Counted from the first letter of the stretch, positions 2,900-34,958 are shown. The stretch is DNA of 64,000 nucleotides from Anaeromyxobacter dehalogenans 2CP-C (GCF_000013385.1 NC_007760.1:4252001-4316000); one strand, 5' to 3'. Notes: generated from the sequence alone by a model not told the origin. Program-made: numbers and translations.

Positions 2900-4932
2900 G
2901 CCGCGGCGGCCCCGGAGACGCGCAGCAGCGACCGCAGCAGCTCCGCGACGCCCCACGCCTGCGCCACGCAGCCGCGCGGCGTGAACGGCGGCTCGGCGTC
3001 GAACACCTCCGAGATCTGCCCGAGGCAGGCGTGGCCGAGCTCGCCGACGAGCCCGTCGAGCGCCCGCCGCGCGCCGTCGAGGTCGCCCGGGTGCACGCGC
3101 AGCCACGCGTCCACCCACGGGCCCACGAGCCAGCTCCACACCGTGCCCTGGTGGTAGGCGGCGTCGCGGGTCCGCAGGTCCCCGTGGTACGTCGCCTTGT
3201 ACTCGGGGTGATCGCGGGAGAGCGAGCGCAGGCCCACCGGGGTGAGCAGCCGCTCGCGGACCGTCTCGAGCACCGGCGCCCAGCGGTCGCGCTCGAGCAC
3301 CGGGCTGGGCAGCGAGATGGCGAGGAGCTGGTTGGGCCGGCAGGCGGGATCGTCCCGGCCGTCCTCGCCGTCCACCACGTCGAAGAGCTGCCGCCCCGGC
3401 GCGTTCCAGAAGCGCCGGTTGAAGGACGCGCGGGCGCGCGCGGCCGCCTCCGCCGCCGCGCGGGCGGCCTCGCCCTCCCCCTCCTCCTCGAGCCAGCGCG
3501 CCAGGTTCGCGAGCGCGTTGAACCACAGCGCGTTGATCTCGACCGCCTTGCCGCGGCGCGGGGTCACCACCCAGCCCTCCACCTTCGCGTCCATCCAGGT
3601 GAGCTGGTAGCCCTGCTCGCCCTGGCGGAGCAGCCCGTCCTGCGGGTCCACCCCGATGCCGAACCGCGTGCCGCGCTGGTGGTGCGCGACCACGTCCCGG
3701 AGCGCCGGCAGCAGCCGGCGCAGGAGCTGCCGGTCGCCGGTGGCCCGCACGTACCGGTCCACCGCGTGGAACATCCAGAGCGTGGCGTCGGCGGTGTGGT
3801 ACAGCCCCTCCGCGTCGCCCTCCGGGAACAGGTTGGGGATGAGCCCGTCGCGCACGTGGCGGGCGAACGCGCGGAGGATCGCGGCGGCGTCGCGCGCGCG
3901 GCCGGTGCAGAGCGCCAGCCCCTCCAGCGAGATCATCGTGTCGCGGCCCCAGTCGGTGAACCAGTGGTAGCCGGCGATCACGGTGCGCGGCGCGTCGCCC
4001 TCCGCCCGCGCCTCCTCCTGCACCCGGCCCGCCGGCGCCACCACGAACGCGTCGGCGGCGAGCACCAGCTCGGCCGCGGGGCCCTGCCGCGCCGCCTCCG
4101 GCGCGCGCGCCAGCAGCGCCTCCCGCCGCGCGCGCTCGGCCCGGAGCGCCTCGTCGGGCGCGAGCGCGGTCACCTGGTCCCACGGCTCGGTGGACGCGAC
4201 CAGCGTCACCGGCGCCTCGCGCCCGAGGTCCACGCGGAAGAAGCCGGGGCTGAACAGGTCGCCCTGCGTGTCGTAGCCGCGGCTCGCCTCCACGCGGTAG
4301 ACCACCTCGGCGAGCCGCTCCTCCTCGACCGTGAACGCGGCGCGCGCGCCGTGCAGCAGCAGGCGCAGCGGCGGGAAGCGCGGGTCGTCGCCGGCGACCT
4401 CGAACCGGCCCCGCGCCGCCACCAGGCGGTAGGCCGGCACCGGCCCGGACACGGGCGCGTCGTGCGGGCGGAAGTGAACGCCGGGCCGCAGCGTGAGCCG
4501 CACCGGGCCGTCGCCGTCGAGGAGCCGGTAGGAGACGTGGACCGTGTTCTGGCCGTGCACGAGCGCCACGCGCCGCTCCAGCACCGCCCCGTCGAGCCGG
4601 TAGGTCCACACCGGCAGCCCGCCCTCGAGCCGGAAGCCGCGGAGGTGCTCGGCGCCGTGCAGCGCGAGCCCCACCGACCGCTCGTCCCCGGCCAGCCGGA
4701 TGCTCCGGCCATCCGCGAGCCGGACCCGGTCGGACAGGTGCGAGAGCATCACCGCGCGCCCGACGCCCGGCAGCGCGGCCACGAGCAGCCCGTGGTACCG
4801 GCGCGTGCAGGCGCCCGCGAGCGTGCCGCTGGCGTACCCGCCCAGCCCGTTCGCGACCAGCCACTCGCGCTCCAGCAGCGCCTCGGCGCCGTCGCCCGGC
4901 GCCCAGCCCTGCCGCACCGGCAGCTCGATCAT
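2854..4932 (-). CDS. Glycogen debranching enzyme (amylo-alpha-1,6-glucosidase type)
   Basis: The 692-residue protein has the two-part layout of bacterial/archaeal debranching enzymes. The N-terminal domain carries NGLGGYASGTLAG and RRYHGLLVA. A C-terminal (alpha/alpha)6 catalytic barrel begins near residue 320 with YHWFTDWGRDTMIS and includes WMDAK and the terminal HQGTVWSW region. It would hydrolyse alpha-1,6 branch points in glycogen or maltodextrin in the cytoplasm. Its ATG overlaps the treZ stop codon as ATGA, so the two genes are translationally coupled. The pairing suggests that glycogen-derived oligosaccharides feed trehalose synthesis. Confidence 0.9.
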   Translation of the reverse strand: MIELPVRQGWAPGDGAEALLEREWLVANGLGGYASGTLAGACTRRYHGLLVAALPGVGRAVMLSHLSDRVRLADGRSIRLAGDERSVGLALHGAEHLRGFRLEGGLPVWTYRLDGAVLERRVALVHGQNTVHVSYRLLDGDGPVRLTLRPGVHFRPHDAPVSGPVPAYRLVAARGRFEVAGDDPRFPPLRLLLHGARAAFTVEEERLAEVVYRVEASRGYDTQGDLFSPGFFRVDLGREAPVTLVASTEPWDQVTALAPDEALRAERARREALLARAPEAARQGPAAELVLAADAFVVAPAGRVQEEARAEGDAPRTVIAGYHWFTDWGRDTMISLEGLALCTGRARDAAAILRAFARHVRDGLIPNLFPEGDAEGLYHTADATLWMFHAVDRYVRATGDRQLLRRLLPALRDVVAHHQRGTRFGIGVDPQDGLLRQGEQGYQLTWMDAKVEGWVVTPRRGKAVEINALWFNALANLARWLEEEGEGEAARAAAEAAARARASFNRRFWNAPGRQLFDVVDGEDGRDDPACRPNQLLAISLPSPVLERDRWAPVLETVRERLLTPVGLRSLSRDHPEYKATYHGDLRTRDAAYHQGTVWSWLVGPWVDAWLRVHPGDLDGARRALDGLVGELGHACLGQISEVFDAEPPFTPRGCVAQAWGVAELLRSLLRVSGAAAAQEPGSRSGSGRELG

Positions 4933-6848
4933 GCCGCGCCCTCCGGCGCCGGCTCGAGCAGGAGCGCGGCGTGCGCCGGCACCGTCCACCCGGCCGCGTC
5001 GTCCAGCGCCGGCGTCCCGGCGCCGCCGTAGCGCGGGTCCTCGGTCGAGAGCGCGACGCGCCAGGCGCGCCCGTCGGGCGGCGCGACGAGCGGCTCGGGC
5101 AGGCTGTCGGCCTCGAGGTCCGGACCCAGGTTCACGAGGAGCAGCCGGTCGCCCGCGCCGTCCGCGAGCCAGCGCAGGCAGAGCGCCTCCGGGGCGAGCA
5201 CCGCGCCGTCCAGCTCCGCCTCGCCGTCGCCGGGCGCCGGCGTGCGGCGGCGCAGCTCCAGCAGGTCCCGGTGCAGCGCGCGGAGCTCGCGCCCGGCGGC
5301 GCGCTCGCCGGGATCGAGGCGGCAGCGGGCGAACGTCTCCGGGTCGGCCGGATCCGGGAGCGCGTCGCGCATGTCCGGCCCGGCGACGGCCGGGAACTGG
5401 CGCAGGAACGCGCCGCGCCCCTCGCGCACGCGGTGCCCGAGCTCGCCCCCGTGGTCGGCGAAGTAGAGGAACGGCCGCGTCGAGCCGAACTCGGCGCCCT
5501 GGAACAGGAGCGGCGTCCACGGCCCGAGCAGCAGCAGCGCGGTGAGGGCGCGGTGGCGCCCGGGGCTGGTGAGCGCGCGCAGCCGCTCGCCGCGCGGGTG
5601 GTTCGCCACCTGATCGTGGTTCTCCAGGTAGGCGACGAAGGCGCGCGGGGGCAGGCCGCGGGTGGTGCGGCCGCGGCGCTTGCCCTGCCAGGCGTAGCGC
5701 TGCCCCTGGAACAGGTAGCCGCGCTTCGCCGCCGAGACGAGCTCCTGCGGCGCGCCGCGGTGGTCGTGGTAGTACGCGCCGCGCCGGCCGGTGGCCGCGA
5801 CCACCGCCGAGTGGTGCAGGTCGTCGTTCCAGGCGAGGTCGAGCCCCATGCCGCCCTCGGCCCGCGGGCGGAGCAGCGCGGCGTCCTGCGGCTCGCTCTC
5901 CGCGACCACCAGGATGGTCCGGCCCGCGGCGGCCGCCGCCGCCCGCGCGCGCCGCGCGACCAGCGCGACCACGTGCTCCTCCGACGCGTCGAACATCCCC
6001 TGCGTCGCGTCGAGGCGAAGGCCGTCGAGGTGGTACTCGGAGATCCAGGCCGCGGCGCTGTCGCCGACCAGCTCGCGCACCGGCCCGACGTCCTCGCCGT
6101 CGAAGTTCAGCGGGTCGCCCCACTCGCCGTGGTAGCGCGTGGAGAACCAGCCCGGCGCGAACTCCCGCAGGTAGCAGCCGTCCGGCCCGAGGTGGTTGTA
6201 GACCACGTCGAGCAGCACCCCGAGCCCGAGCGCGTGCGCGCGGTCCACGAAGCGCCGGAGGTCGTCGGGCGGGCCGTAGAGCCGCGTGGGCGCGAACAGG
6301 TCCACGCCGTCGTAGCCCCAGCCGAACCGGCCCGGGAACTCCGCGACCGGCAGGACCTCCACGGCGGTGACGCCCAGCTCGGCGAGCGCCAGCAGCTCGC
6401 GCTCCGCCGCGGCCCAGGTCCCCTCCGGCGTGAACGTCCCGACGTGCAGCTCGTAGAGCACCTGCCCGCGCGGCCGGAGCCCGCGCCAGCCCGCGTCCGT
6501 CCAGCGGAAGCGCGAGGGATCCACCACCTGGGAGGGCCCGTGCGGCCCCTCCGGCTGGAAGCGCGAGGCGGGGTCCGGGTAGGCGCCCCCGCCGTCGAGC
6601 CGGTAGCGGTAGCGCGCCCCGTCGCGCAGGCCCGGCACCAGCCCCGCGTGCCACCCGCCGGGCTCCGGCGCTAGCGGGTGGCCGGCCTCGCGCGCGCCCT
6701 CGATCCGCACCTCCACGCGCGAACGGGCCGGCGCCCAGACGCGGAAGTGCACCCCCTCGTCCACCACCTCGGCCCCGGCGGCGAGCCGGCGCCGCGCGAC
6801 GGTCGGTGCCGGCTGCCCCGGCGGCGCGTCGATCCTCACCACCGTCAC
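4929..6848 (-). CDS. treZ: Malto-oligosyltrehalose trehalohydrolase
   Basis: This 639-residue GH13 enzyme cleaves trehalose from malto-oligosyltrehalose, the last step of the TreY/TreZ route. An N-terminal CBM48-type beta domain (VHFRVWAPARSRVEV, about residues 30-110) precedes the TIM barrel. Visible barrel motifs are GLRLDATQGM (nucleophile Asp near 280), AESEPQD (acid Glu near 316) and LENHDQVANH (near 412). LLLGPWTPLLFQGAEFGS is typical of TreZ. The start is a GTG. It is the first gene of an operon with the debranching enzyme; treY is not in the window. Confidence 0.92.
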   Translation of the reverse strand: MTVVRIDAPPGQPAPTVARRRLAAGAEVVDEGVHFRVWAPARSRVEVRIEGAREAGHPLAPEPGGWHAGLVPGLRDGARYRYRLDGGGAYPDPASRFQPEGPHGPSQVVDPSRFRWTDAGWRGLRPRGQVLYELHVGTFTPEGTWAAAERELLALAELGVTAVEVLPVAEFPGRFGWGYDGVDLFAPTRLYGPPDDLRRFVDRAHALGLGVLLDVVYNHLGPDGCYLREFAPGWFSTRYHGEWGDPLNFDGEDVGPVRELVGDSAAAWISEYHLDGLRLDATQGMFDASEEHVVALVARRARAAAAAAGRTILVVAESEPQDAALLRPRAEGGMGLDLAWNDDLHHSAVVAATGRRGAYYHDHRGAPQELVSAAKRGYLFQGQRYAWQGKRRGRTTRGLPPRAFVAYLENHDQVANHPRGERLRALTSPGRHRALTALLLLGPWTPLLFQGAEFGSTRPFLYFADHGGELGHRVREGRGAFLRQFPAVAGPDMRDALPDPADPETFARCRLDPGERAAGRELRALHRDLLELRRRTPAPGDGEAELDGAVLAPEALCLRWLADGAGDRLLLVNLGPDLEADSLPEPLVAPPDGRAWRVALSTEDPRYGGAGTPALDDAAGWTVPAHAALLLEPAPEGAA

Positions 6849-31277: not shown

Positions 31278-31442
31278 TCGTCCCGCCGGAGCCGGCCGGC
31301 CCGCCCCGTCTCCCGGCCGCGGGACAGCGGTCCCGCCCCGCCGCCCTCGACGTGGGGATGCGGCCAGGGCCGAGCACCTACCCGCCCTGACCGGCTCGCA
31401 CCCGATACCGTCGCGTCGCGCGTTCACGGCCCTTTCCGCCCC

Positions 31443-32141
31443 ATGTCTCCCGCGCTAGTGTTCGCTCGTTGCGCAGCCCGATGGTCGAAGGGGGATCCCA
31501 TCGCTCGCCTGGCAGAGAGACTCGCGCTCGCCGCTCCCGTGACGTCGCAGGCCGAGATCGAGGCCGACGTCCTCGACCTCGCCGACGCCGCGGACCACGA
31601 CGCGGTCGAGCGCACGCTCGCCGGCGACACCGACGCGTTCGCCAGCGTCGTCCGCCGGTACGCCGGCGGCCTGGTCGGGACCTGCAGCCGCATGGTGGGC
31701 GACGCCCGCCTGGGCGAGGAGCTCGCGCAGGAGGCGCTCGCGCGCGCCTACACGCGCCTCGCCTCGTTCCGCGGCGACTGCCGCTTCCGCCACTGGCTCT
31801 ACCGCATCGCCGTGAACGGCTGCCGGGACTGGCTGAAGGCCGGCGCGCGCGCGGAGCGCGCCAGCGATCTCTCCGGCGACGAGCTGGTGAGCGCGGTGGA
31901 CCCGGAGCGCGACGCCGCCGCCCGGCAGGCGGTGCTCGCGCTGCAGAGCGCGCTCGCCGCGCTCCCGGCCAAGTACCGCGAGGCCTTCACGCTGTTCCAC
32001 GTCGAGAACCTTCCCTACGAGGAGATCGAGGCGGCCACCGGCGTCCGCGTGAACGCGCTGAAGGTGCGGGTGCACCGCGCCCGCATCATGCTGCGCGAGC
32101 GCCTCGGCGACCTGCTCGATCCGGACGAGGTGCTGCCGTGA
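31443..32141 (+). CDS. ECF-type RNA polymerase sigma factor
   Basis: The protein has up to 232 residues. The sigma2 region spans roughly 70-140 (RYAGGLVGTCSRMVGDARLGEELAQEAL, SFRGDCRFRHWLYRIAVNGCRDWLK). Sigma4 carries LPAKYREAFTLFHVENLPYEEIEAATGVRVNALKVRVHRAR. It is preceded by a charged N-terminal extension. The start is doubtful: the ATG at 31443 has no ribosome-binding site, a -10-like TAGTGT lies just inside, and an AAGGGGG sequence sits correctly before an ATC codon at 31500. It is coupled by GTGA to the putative anti-sigma gene and likely transcribes the cluster to 34958. Confidence 0.85.
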   Translation: MSPALVFARCAARWSKGDPIARLAERLALAAPVTSQAEIEADVLDLADAADHDAVERTLAGDTDAFASVVRRYAGGLVGTCSRMVGDARLGEELAQEALARAYTRLASFRGDCRFRHWLYRIAVNGCRDWLKAGARAERASDLSGDELVSAVDPERDAAARQAVLALQSALAALPAKYREAFTLFHVENLPYEEIEAATGVRVNALKVRVHRARIMLRERLGDLLDPDEVLP

Positions 32142-32758
32142 CGGAGCGCGAGCTCCAGGACCTGCTGGACGGCCGCCCCGGTCCGCTCGCGGCGGAGCGG
32201 CTGCTGTCGTCCCTGCCGCCGGAGGAGCGCCAGGCCGCGCTCCGCCTGGTGGCGCTCTCGCGGCTGGCCGGCGCCGGCGCGCGCCCCGCGCCGTCCGACG
32301 ACTTCGTCCAGCGCACCATGGCGCGCGTGCGCGCCAGCCGCCCGCCGCGGCGGCGGCCGCTCCTCGCCTGGCTGACCGGCCCCCGCCTCTCGCCGCTCGG
32401 CGCGCTGGGCGGCGCGGCGGCCGCGGCGTTCCTGGCGGTGGCGGTGGCCCGCTTCCCGGCGCCGCCCGGCCCGGAGGCCGCGCGCGCGCCCGAGGCGCCG
32501 GTGGTGCTGGCGCGGCTCGCGCTGGCGGCGCCCGGCGCGCGGGTGGTGCGCGTCGCGGGCGACTTCAACGGCTGGAAGCCCGAGGTGACGCCGCTCCGGC
32601 GCGGCCCCGACGGCGTGTGGACGGTGGAGGTCCCGCTCCGGCCCGGGCGCCGCTACGAGTACATGTTCGTGGTGGACGGCTCGTGGACCACCGACCCGGG
32701 CGCGCGCGCCCTCGCCGACGACGGCTTCGGCGGAAAGAACGCCATCCTGGACCTGTAG
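32138..32758 (+). CDS. Putative anti-sigma factor with periplasmic CBM48 domain
   Basis: The 206-residue protein has a cytoplasmic N-terminal part (about 1-85, ELQDLLDGRPGPLAAERLL), one TM helix near 88-108 and a C-terminal CBM48/AMPK-type glycan-binding domain (about 125-205). The domain contains VAGDFNGWKPEV, GRRYEYMFVVDGSW and DDGFGGKNAILDL. Its position next to an ECF sigma factor and its single-TM topology suggest a membrane anti-sigma factor, although no HxxxCxxC zinc motif is present. CBM48 normally binds alpha-glucans such as glycogen, so a periplasmic glycan signal is possible but unproven. Confidence 0.75.
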   Translation: MTERELQDLLDGRPGPLAAERLLSSLPPEERQAALRLVALSRLAGAGARPAPSDDFVQRTMARVRASRPPRRRPLLAWLTGPRLSPLGALGGAAAAAFLAVAVARFPAPPGPEAARAPEAPVVLARLALAAPGARVVRVAGDFNGWKPEVTPLRRGPDGVWTVEVPLRPGRRYEYMFVVDGSWTTDPGARALADDGFGGKNAILDL

Positions 32759-32760
32759 GC

Positions 32761-33654
32761 GTGCTCGCGCCGAGCCTCGTCGCCCTCGCGCTGTGCTCGG
32801 CCGCGCACGGCGCCAACGGCCGCCTGGTGCTCTCCGCGCGCGCCGGCGCCGGCTGGGCGAGCGACACGTACCTGGGCGCGGAGATGGGCGGCGGGGCCTT
32901 CGCCGAGGTGGCGCCGGCCGCGCGGCTGGACCTCTCGCTGGTGCCGCGGCTGAAGCTGGACGCCACCGGCGAGGTCTCGCTCGCGCGCTACCAGGCGGGC
33001 GGCTTCGGCGCCGTCTCGGAGGCCGCCGGGGTCCGCACCCGCTGGCTCGGCGAGGGATGGGAGGCGTCGCTCGCGGCGGCCGCCGAGCACGCCTCGTTCT
33101 CCTCCGGCGTCCCGCTCGGCGACCTCGCCGCCGGGCCGCAGGTGGACGCCACCACGGCGGCGCTCCTCACGCCGCAGCTGCGGGTGCGGACCGGGCCGGT
33201 CGCGCTGCGCGCCGCCGCCACCGGCACGCTGCGCGCGTCGCGCGCCTCCGGGGACCGGGTGGGCGAGCGCGGGATCGCGGCGCTCGCCGCGGTGGAGTGG
33301 GCGCCGTCGCGGCGCGCGGCGGTGGAGCTGTCGCTCCGGCACGAGCGCGTGGCGAGCGAGGTCCCCGAGTTCGAGCTGCGCGCCTGGGGCGGCGCGGCGA
33401 GCGCGCTGATCCGCCCCGCCGGCGCGCTCGAGGCGTCGGCGGTGGCGCAGGCGCACCGCGCCGCGCTGCACGGCGGCGTGGACGAGACGGTCTGGCGCGC
33501 CACGCTGGACCTGGCGCACCCGGCCGGCCCGGTGTGGCTGGTCGTGTCCGGCGGCTGGGCGCGGAGCGCGACCGGCGGCGCCGAGCGCGCCGTGGCCGAC
33601 CGCGCGGCGGTGTTCGCGGGCGTGCGCGGCAGCGCGAGGGTGCTCTCGTGGTGA
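32761..33654 (+). CDS. Exported beta-rich envelope protein in the sigma/CBM48 cluster
   Basis: The 297-residue protein starts with a GTG two bases after the upstream stop and a short signal peptide (VLAPSLVALALCSAAHG, cleavage near 17). The mature part is a repetitive pattern of amphipathic beta strands (RLVLSARAGAGWAS, AARLDLSLVPRLKLDATGEVSLA, RAAVELSLRHERV), consistent with an outer-membrane barrel. It ends in SARVLSW, an aromatic C-terminus. No family was recognised. Its stop overlaps the CBM48 lipoprotein start. Confidence 0.6.
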   Translation: MLAPSLVALALCSAAHGANGRLVLSARAGAGWASDTYLGAEMGGGAFAEVAPAARLDLSLVPRLKLDATGEVSLARYQAGGFGAVSEAAGVRTRWLGEGWEASLAAAAEHASFSSGVPLGDLAAGPQVDATTAALLTPQLRVRTGPVALRAAATGTLRASRASGDRVGERGIAALAAVEWAPSRRAAVELSLRHERVASEVPEFELRAWGGAASALIRPAGALEASAVAQAHRAALHGGVDETVWRATLDLAHPAGPVWLVVSGGWARSATGGAERAVADRAAVFAGVRGSARVLSW

Positions 33655-34013
33655 GCGGGCGCCGCCGGCTCGCGGCGCTCGCCCTCGCGGCCTTCGCCGG
33701 CGCCTGCGCGCCGCGTGCGACCGTCCGCGCGCCGGGGCAGGCGTCCACGCAGGGTGCTCCCGCGCCCACCGTGTTCGCCTTCCGGGGACCCGCCGACGCG
33801 GTCGCGCTGCGCGGCACCATGACCGGGTGGGACGCGGTCCCGCTGGAGCGCGAGGGCGATCGGTTCGTGCTCGCGATATCGCTCGCGAGCGGTCGATACG
33901 AGTACCGCTTCGAGGTGCGCCGCGGCGCCGAACTGCGTATCGTCCTCCCGGAGGACGCCGAGCGGGTGGACGACGGCTTCGGCGGCGAGAACGCGGTCCT
34001 CCGCGTCCCGTAA
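33651..34013 (+). CDS. CBM48-domain lipoprotein
   Basis: The 120-residue protein has a lipoprotein signal (LAALALAAFAGAC, lipobox Cys near 20) and a single CBM48-like domain (about 45-120): ALRGTMTGWDAVPLEREG, SGRYEYRFEV and DDGFGGENAVLRVP. The last motif is almost identical to the end of the CBM48 domain in the putative anti-sigma factor (32138-32758), so the two domains are duplicates. The GDFNGW signature is degraded to GTMTGW. It is probably anchored in the envelope and co-transcribed with the sigma factor. Confidence 0.75.
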   Translation: MSGRRRLAALALAAFAGACAPRATVRAPGQASTQGAPAPTVFAFRGPADAVALRGTMTGWDAVPLEREGDRFVLAISLASGRYEYRFEVRRGAELRIVLPEDAERVDDGFGGENAVLRVP

Positions 34014-34061
34014 CCGCGTGCTCCGACGCTCGTCGAATCGGGTGGTGCGGACGTCGGCAGA

Positions 34062-34958
34062 ATGGAGACACCGTCGGTGATCGTCGCGCTCTTCCTCACC
34101 TCCCTGCTCGGCGTCCCGGCGCCGTCCGCGCCCTCCACGCCGGACCCGGTCCAGTCGGCCGCCGCGGCGGGCGTCCCCGCCGCGCTGGCCCGCGACGTGG
34201 CGAGCCGGGCCGCCGCGCGCGGCCTCGAGCCGGAGCGGGCGCTCGCGCCGGTGGTCGAGGCGGCCCGCGCCGGCCTGCCCGGCGAGGTGGTCGCGGCGAA
34301 GATCCTCGAGGGCCTGGCGAAGGGCGCGCCGCCGGCGCGCGTGCTCGAGGTCGCCGCCGAGCTGGGCGGCCGCCTCTCGCGCGCGGCGGCGCTGGTGGCG
34401 CAGGCGCGGGCCTCGGGGCTGCCGCTCCGCGGCGACCGGGCCGCGGCGCTCGCCGACCTGGCCGGCGCGCTCGGCGCGGGCGTGCCGCCGGACGCGGTGC
34501 TGCAGCTCGTGGACGCGGCCCGCGGCGCGGCCGGCGGGAGCTGCGAGGCGGTGGTGGCGGCGGCGCGCACGCTGGGTGAGCTGGCCCGGCGCGGCGTGCC
34601 CGTGCGCGACGCGCTCCCGCTCGGCGCGGCGCTGGCGCAGCGCGCGCCCGCGTCCGCCGGCGAGGTGGCCGCGCTGTACGAGGCGTACCGCGCCGAGGGC
34701 GGCCGGGACGCCGCGGCGTTCCTGGCCGAGGCGGAGCGCCGCGTCGAGGCCGGCGCCGCGCTGCAGGGCATGGTGGACACCTTCGGCGACTCGCCCGACC
34801 ACCTGGTGCGCGCGCGCAGCCGGGCCGACGAGGCCGCCGCCGGCGGGCTCGACAAGGCCGCCGAGCACGTCCGCAGCGCGCGCGAGGGCGTGGGCCCCGG
34901 GTCGCCGCCCGGCCTGGAGCGCCTGCCGCCCGGCCGTGGGCCGAAGAAGCCCAAGTAG
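34062..34958 (+). CDS. Exported helical-repeat protein, unknown
   Basis: The 298-residue protein has an N-terminal hydrophobic signal (VIVALFLTSLLGVPAPSAP) followed by repeated Ala/Leu/Arg-rich amphipathic helices of about 35-40 residues (VPAALARDVASRAAARGLEPERAL, LPGEVVAAKILEGLAKGAPPARVLEVAAE). The recurring AxxGVP/xxGLP-type turns suggest an alpha-solenoid. A hydrophilic Pro/Lys tail (GRGPKKPK) closes it. It lies 48 bases after the CBM48 lipoprotein and may be the last gene of the sigma cluster. No known family. Confidence 0.6.
   Translation: METPSVIVALFLTSLLGVPAPSAPSTPDPVQSAAAAGVPAALARDVASRAAARGLEPERALAPVVEAARAGLPGEVVAAKILEGLAKGAPPARVLEVAAELGGRLSRAAALVAQARASGLPLRGDRAAALADLAGALGAGVPPDAVLQLVDAARGAAGGSCEAVVAAARTLGELARRGVPVRDALPLGAALAQRAPASAGEVAALYEAYRAEGGRDAAAFLAEAERRVEAGAALQGMVDTFGDSPDHLVRARSRADEAAAGGLDKAAEHVRSAREGVGPGSPPGLERLPPGRGPKKPK

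Follow-up and report, generated by a model that had tools for sequence, protein, structure and literature searches.

A putative autoregulated ECF sigma/anti-sigma module with CBM48 domains, predicted to sense the cell envelope, in Anaeromyxobacter and distant phyla

In Clostridium thermocellum, carbohydrate-binding modules (CBMs) on the anti-sigma factor of the SigI/RsgI system sense polysaccharide, and release of the sigma factor proceeds by stepwise proteolysis that includes RseP (PMC12203970). Within the CBM48 family, AMPK beta contacts beta-cyclodextrin via W100, W133, K126 and N150 (PMC9788615), and plant PTST needs a Trp pair (PMC4339375). The open-access papers searched here contained no description of anti-sigma factors with a CBM48 domain, as a preliminary description of the present locus had suspected, and nothing that linked an AMPK1_CBM or glycogen-binding domain to sigma factors. 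No CBM, AMPK or glycogen domain appears in the main text of PMC7406223, and the Anaeromyxobacter ECF papers found concern, by title and abstract, other systems. The module reported here is apparently an undescribed variant of ECF signalling.

The DNA analysed was a window of 64 kb, corresponding to positions 4252001-4316000 of the host genome, a single contig of 5,013,479 bases. An open reading frame check at 31443-34958 of this window identified five genes, all on the (+) strand, which encode a sigma factor (31443..32141; ATG at 31443, or GTG at 31539), a putative anti-sigma factor with a GTG start (32138..32758), a predicted outer-membrane beta-barrel (32761..33654), a CBM48 lipoprotein with a lipobox-like AGAC (33651..34013) and an exported alpha-solenoid, or helical protein, with an EGLAKG motif and a flexible C-terminus (34062..34958); the cluster is flanked by bioC and a kinase gene. 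Reading frames, Pfam, hydropathy and structure models agreed with the gene types and order that the preliminary description had given, including its single-transmembrane anti-sigma with a periplasmic C-terminal CBM48, its beta-rich envelope protein and its helical-repeat exported protein, the latter two being borne out as a predicted 14-stranded outer-membrane barrel and a predicted solenoid. The tight spacing was likewise confirmed: the sigma and anti-sigma genes overlap by 4 nt (GTGA), 2 nt separate the anti-sigma from the barrel gene, the lipoprotein gene begins within the last codons of the barrel gene with a 4-nt overlap, and the 48 nt between the lipoprotein and helical genes hold a predicted promoter.

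The sigma factor matched Sigma70_r2 (2e-12) and Sigma70_r4_2 (9e-15) above the Pfam cut-off, as well as TIGR02937 (84.3 bits against a cut-off of 42.9), and it carries only regions 2 and 4 of Sigma70, the combination that defines an ECF sigma factor. A tree split placed all of the module sigmas (60/60) on one side, together with only a single one of the host genome's 21 further sigma factors. The predicted anti-sigma factor has a cytoplasmic N-terminal domain of the "LDGEL" type with no Pfam match, a single hydropathy transmembrane window at about residues 86-104, and a C-terminal periplasmic CBM48 at residues 131-202, which matched CBM_48 and AMPK1_CBM with 38.4 and 37.9 bits (2e-9), above the curated Pfam cut-off. 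Its assignment is supported by homologs, since zf-HC2 was detected in 6 of 44 and the HxxxCxxC anti-sigma motif in several; non-zinc ASDIs are common (PMC7406223). Knowledge of these families makes it very likely that the putative anti-sigma sequesters the sigma factor, and the six M50 (RseP-like) matches in the genome are compatible with regulated proteolysis.

The remaining proteins are predicted to form the outer-envelope part of the module, and the barrel, lipoprotein and helical protein all showed signal-type N-termini by hydropathy. Neither the barrel nor the helical protein matched a Pfam family above cut-off, and both were modelled with AlphaFold2 on alignments of 30 and 52 sequences. 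The barrel model has 14 strands (pLDDT 90.5, pTM 0.85), and its nearest solved folds are the cyclodextrin channel CymA and OmpG, both 14-stranded (TM about 0.6, 10-12% identity), a likeness of models that may reflect just the common strand number. The helical protein was modelled as a solenoid of 13 helices (pLDDT 86), for which structure comparison returned no trusted solved relative. The best VIA match was to designed repeats (Z 6.4), and these, together with mTERF/TAL-like entries, were rejected as relatives with Z under 7.

The lipoprotein CBM48 matched AMPK1_CBM with 38.1 bits (1.9e-9), again above the curated cut-off, and the two domains of the module are the only AMPK1_CBM matches in the 5.0 Mb genome. 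The preliminary description had taken their nearly identical endings (DDGFGGKNA and DDGFGGENA) as a sign that one was duplicated from the other, which proved wrong: DDGFGGxNA is a general motif of the CBM48 family, present also in a solved pullulanase. A recent duplication was rejected, since their sequences share only 30% identity and each clusters with domains of its own positional class across phyla, the lipoprotein CBM48 being the positional counterpart of a C-terminal CBM48 on barrel proteins elsewhere. Nor was there support for the statement that CBM48 is normally intracellular, the domain being frequent on exported amylase lipoproteins of the phylum. Other CBM48 proteins were also noted. 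In the window, 4929-6848 (-) encodes a 639-aa GH13-like protein, probably a trehalohydrolase, with its own CBM_48 (28.4 bits), which adjoins an apparent glycogen-debranching enzyme, and a further CBM_48 protein, GlgB-like, lies at 1217900 of the genome. Elsewhere, sigma-less loci of Krumholzibacteria, Zixibacteria, Eisenbacteria, Cloacimonadota and unclassified bacteria (L122, L126, L133, L143, L144, L149, L150, L153, L154 and L155) hold one to five copies of CBM48, borne by large exported proteins of which some have GH13 or GH57 domains as well, and possibly represent a separate, CBM48-rich surface glucan system.

With respect to ligand contacts, the equivalents of AMPK W100, W133 and N150 are kept in 65/65, 60/65 and 63/65 anti-sigma CBM48s, respectively, while the position of the contact Lys (AMPK K126) is Met in 54 and Lys in none of the 65, suggesting that the ligand pocket is retained but altered. 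Of 94 CBM48s whose loci do not belong to the sigma-linked set, many being parts of exported amylases, 82 keep this Lys. The second CBM48s of the modules keep the first Trp in 48/48, the second in 38/48 and the Asn in 39/48; the lipoprotein of the window has lost its second Trp. As far as residue conservation goes, the retained Trp pair and Asn point towards a sugar ligand; the absence of the Lys from all 65 anti-sigmas suggests that the ligand is perhaps no alpha-glucan, or no sugar. The latter would suit an assembly or envelope-stress sensor resembling RseA/RseB, whose CBM48 domains, as E-set folds, would be protein-protein modules that bind no sugar: the second CBM48 or the solenoid would sit on the anti-sigma CBM48 and keep the sigma factor off, and a barrel complex that is lost or wrongly assembled would leave the anti-sigma free to be cleaved. 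Loss of the contact Lys and of the second Trp in the window lipoprotein agrees with such a sensor, in which the solenoid would be a plausible scaffold. A pure protein interface, however, needs neither the Trp pair nor the Asn, which are kept in nearly all anti-sigmas and also in most second CBM48s (38-48 of 48); we consider this alternative the less likely one. Reading of a glycan is put ahead of reading of protein assembly, without certainty.

The gene order, for which a genome search had been proposed, was found to recur in dozens of distant genomes. Loci were collected by a CBM48-profile search of Myxococcota, by homology, and by an anti-sigma-alignment scan of 85,000 species genomes (393 relatives, 80 retained); genes in the fetched loci were called in this analysis, phyla were taken from record titles, and most of the remote loci are contigs of metagenome-assembled genomes (MAGs). 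Profile searches placed a sigma gene directly before a CBM48 anti-sigma gene in 69 fetched loci (64 after removal of duplicate genomes), and a second CBM48 and a helical protein lay within a few kb in 49 of the 69 (45 of the 64). These loci belong to Myxococcota, Gemmatimonadota, Nitrospirota (Nitrospira and Thermodesulfovibrio), Acidobacteriota (Vicinamibacterales and another Acidobacteria MAG), Eisenbacteria, Rokubacteria, Elusimicrobia and Spirochaetota. Four Anaeromyxobacter genomes carry this set (cut short in one where the contig ends), as does G017, which represents a second genus of their family, and the full order of sigma, anti-sigma-CBM48, barrel, CBM48 lipoprotein and helical protein also occurs in another family (G155, locus L050). 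A small lipoprotein, with a barrel gene (BBP2_2 match) nearby, provides the second CBM48 in Nitrospira and related bacteria; Gemmatimonadota, Eisenbacteria and several Myxococcota have it fused to the barrel protein as a C-terminal domain. This fusion shows directly that the window's barrel gene and the lipoprotein gene overlapping it belong together. Within Myxococcota, 11 of 193 genomes, including one cut off at a contig end, encode the full anti-sigma-CBM48; the helical family occurs in nine of these 11, and elsewhere among the 193 gave a single weak match (4e-9, G028). In three congeners without the module, bioC and the kinase gene are still neighbours, about 0.9 kb apart.

An ECF pair beside unrelated envelope genes might be expected from the dense gene packing of GC-rich genomes, but a chance or loose neighbourhood is contradicted by the recurrence across phyla, the fusions, the presence or absence of the module as a unit, the co-occurrences and the common promoter described below, and is hardly credible. 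On the genome comparison, the set is an ancient unit and its arrangement, given the recurrence in dozens of distant genomes and the co-occurrence of helical protein and anti-sigma, is not due to chance. Two variants were also observed. The G155 genome has two modules (L045 and L050), one with a barrel-CBM48 fusion and a helical gene divergent from the sigma operon, and in G163 (L041:7284-8330) one reading frame joins sigma region 2 to the anti-sigma-CBM48 and lacks sigma region 4, which represents either a real fusion or an assembly deletion.

A search upstream of the sigma genes for the canonical GGAAC -35 element gave nothing consistent, and an unbiased word-pair search recovered TGAC-N17-CGTC above background upstream of the modules. 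Refinement gave TGTAAC or TGTGAC, a spacer of N16/17 and TCGTCT, found in Gemmatimonadota, Nitrospirota, Eisenbacteria, Rokubacteria, Elusimicrobia and G017, where TGTAAC-N16/17-TCGTCT, a conserved predicted promoter of ECF type, precedes the sigma gene or the helical gene in many loci, and the motif also lies before a Gemmatimonadota lipoprotein gene and DUF4382 lipoprotein genes; except for tests in the host's family, the motif matrix was made from the loci that it describes. In the window, a matrix trained without sites from the host's family gave its best match of the whole 64 kb at 34008..34036 (+), with 0.2 expected per shuffled window. This predicted promoter of the cognate sigma, CCGTAACC-N13-CTCGTCGA (TAAC-N16-CGTC), overlaps the lipoprotein stop codon and lies 25 bp before the helical gene. 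Its -35 sequence GTAACC does not vary among five genomes, and a CGTC follows at a compatible distance, part of this conservation overlapping the TAA stop of the lipoprotein gene. Upstream of the window's sigma gene no significant promoter site was detected, the candidate at 31384..31414 (+; TGAC-N17-CGTC) being weak and not significant (p 0.46) and present otherwise in the closest relative alone.

Regulon searches, performed by pattern matching only, found that exact motif matches lie inside the locus in G017 (3/3 in a 5.3 Mb genome, with zero control matches) and in the module in Gemmatimonadota (5/5, with one control match), and Nitrospirota gave 7 matches versus 2 control matches. Since the matches are nearly confined to the module, the regulon looks local and self-amplifying; that the sigma factor would transcribe mainly its own locus is the conclusion best supported by the data, and its output would then be more of the same envelope complex. 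A regulon of this kind, resembling the module's own structural proteins and free of sugar enzymes, also suits the RseA/RseB-like sensor. In the neighbourhoods, no gene for a glycosidase, sugar uptake, a transporter or TonB recurred conspicuously, and the families beyond the module were mostly alternate-frame artefacts of GC-rich DNA, the real extra neighbours being the Gemmatimonadota lipoprotein, Nitrospirota barrels (BBP2_2 and Phenol_MetA_deg) and DUF4382 lipoproteins. Both observations bear on a nutrient-glucan scavenging switch similar to a polysaccharide-utilization locus, in which starch fragments arriving through the barrel would induce uptake and degradation genes. The CBM48 domains, the cyclodextrin porin CymA as nearest barrel fold and the common CBM48 amylase lipoproteins of the phylum are in line with such a switch, but the missing recurrent glycosidase, transporter or TonB gene and the confinement of exact promoter matches to the module speak against it and leave it quite improbable; together they tip the balance from foraging to sensing of the cell's own envelope. 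Among the neighbours, DUF4382 lipoproteins are encoded in or beside the module at L039:8688-9362, L058:9262-9834 and, in L099 and L110, near 4.1 kb; three of them sit behind the module promoter motif and are a candidate further component. Small exported Gly/Met/His-rich repeat proteins (GTGMGSGSGTGHMGP type) in Nitrospirota (L112:4449, L119:4103 and L083:8525) also follow the module promoter.

We propose, as on balance the probable reading, a self-contained and autoregulated ECF sigma/anti-sigma module for envelope sensing whose CBM48 domains bind a ligand. The cytoplasmic N-terminal domain of the anti-sigma would keep the ECF sigma at the inner membrane, and its one transmembrane helix would place the CBM48 in the periplasm; the outer-envelope half would be made of the 14-stranded barrel and the second CBM48, with the solenoid as partner or scaffold. 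The CBM48s would bind a ligand that belongs to the envelope or passes through the barrel and that is most probably an oligo- or polysaccharide resembling an alpha-glucan, and binding would change the state of the anti-sigma and lead to its cleavage, at site 2 by an RseP-type M50 protease; inhibition of the sigma factor, the nature of the ligand and the proteolysis are drawn in this proposal from family knowledge. The freed sigma factor would then transcribe the sigma operon, the helical gene and neighbouring exported lipoproteins from TGTAAC-N16/17-TCGTCT. Counting against the proposal are the altered CBM48 contacts (the Lys in the anti-sigmas and the second Trp in the window lipoprotein), the window anti-sigma's N-terminus with no Pfam match, the region before the window's sigma gene with no significant promoter, and the possibly superficial likeness to CymA and OmpG. 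A more specific version, in which the barrel-joined CBM48 and the Met-variant CBM48 of the anti-sigma report the same envelope glycan, via a new periplasmic solenoid family, to a locus-bound sigma factor, as a widespread and undescribed system, is held tentatively, at a little short of an even chance.

If the proposal is true, it would add to diderm bacteria an anti-sigma system with a sugar-binding domain, parallel to the clostridial RsgI, in carriers (Nitrospirota, Gemmatimonadota and Myxococcota) from ecologically important and little-studied phyla. CBM48, best known as a domain of glycogen enzymes, would become a testable envelope sensor, the EGLAKG solenoid would be a newly named family of exported proteins, and the promoter motif would make the regulon directly readable in many genomes.

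Compared with known systems, the module resembles class I anti-sigmas of the RseA, RsiW and ChrR type (PMC7406223) in that an ECF sigma is followed by a membrane anti-sigma, some module homologs carrying the Hx3Cx2C zinc motif, and differs from them by the added CBM48 sensor domain, the coupled barrel-CBM48 and the solenoid. With AMPK beta and PTST it shares the CBM48 family and the conserved stacking Trp and Asn, although those proteins are cytosolic or plastid and the anti-sigmas have another residue, mostly Met, in place of the contact Lys126. CymA and OmpG have 14 strands like the predicted barrel, which in the module is instead linked to a CBM48 and a sigma system. The FecI/FecR- and Sus-type systems of Bacteroidota share the idea of signalling from the cell surface to an ECF sigma; no FecR domain was matched in the window anti-sigma or its 44 homologs, and no TonB-dependent receptor was found at the module, whose barrel has 14 strands and not 22. 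Like SigI/RsgI, the module encodes, together with its sigma factor, a single-transmembrane anti-sigma with an extracytoplasmic carbohydrate-binding module (PMC12203970). SigI, however, is not a classical ECF sigma, whereas that of the module is, and RsgI has its own N-terminal domain, a self-cleaving periplasmic domain and sensors such as CBM3, CBM42 and PA14, in a system without outer membrane, barrel, second CBM48 or solenoid. The RsgI N-terminal domain gave no Pfam match in the 44 anti-sigma homologs at E 0.01, and since the transmembrane segment ends at about residue 104 and the CBM48 starts at about 120-131, there is no room for a self-cleaving domain. The module thus works most like RsgI/SigI but falls outside that family.
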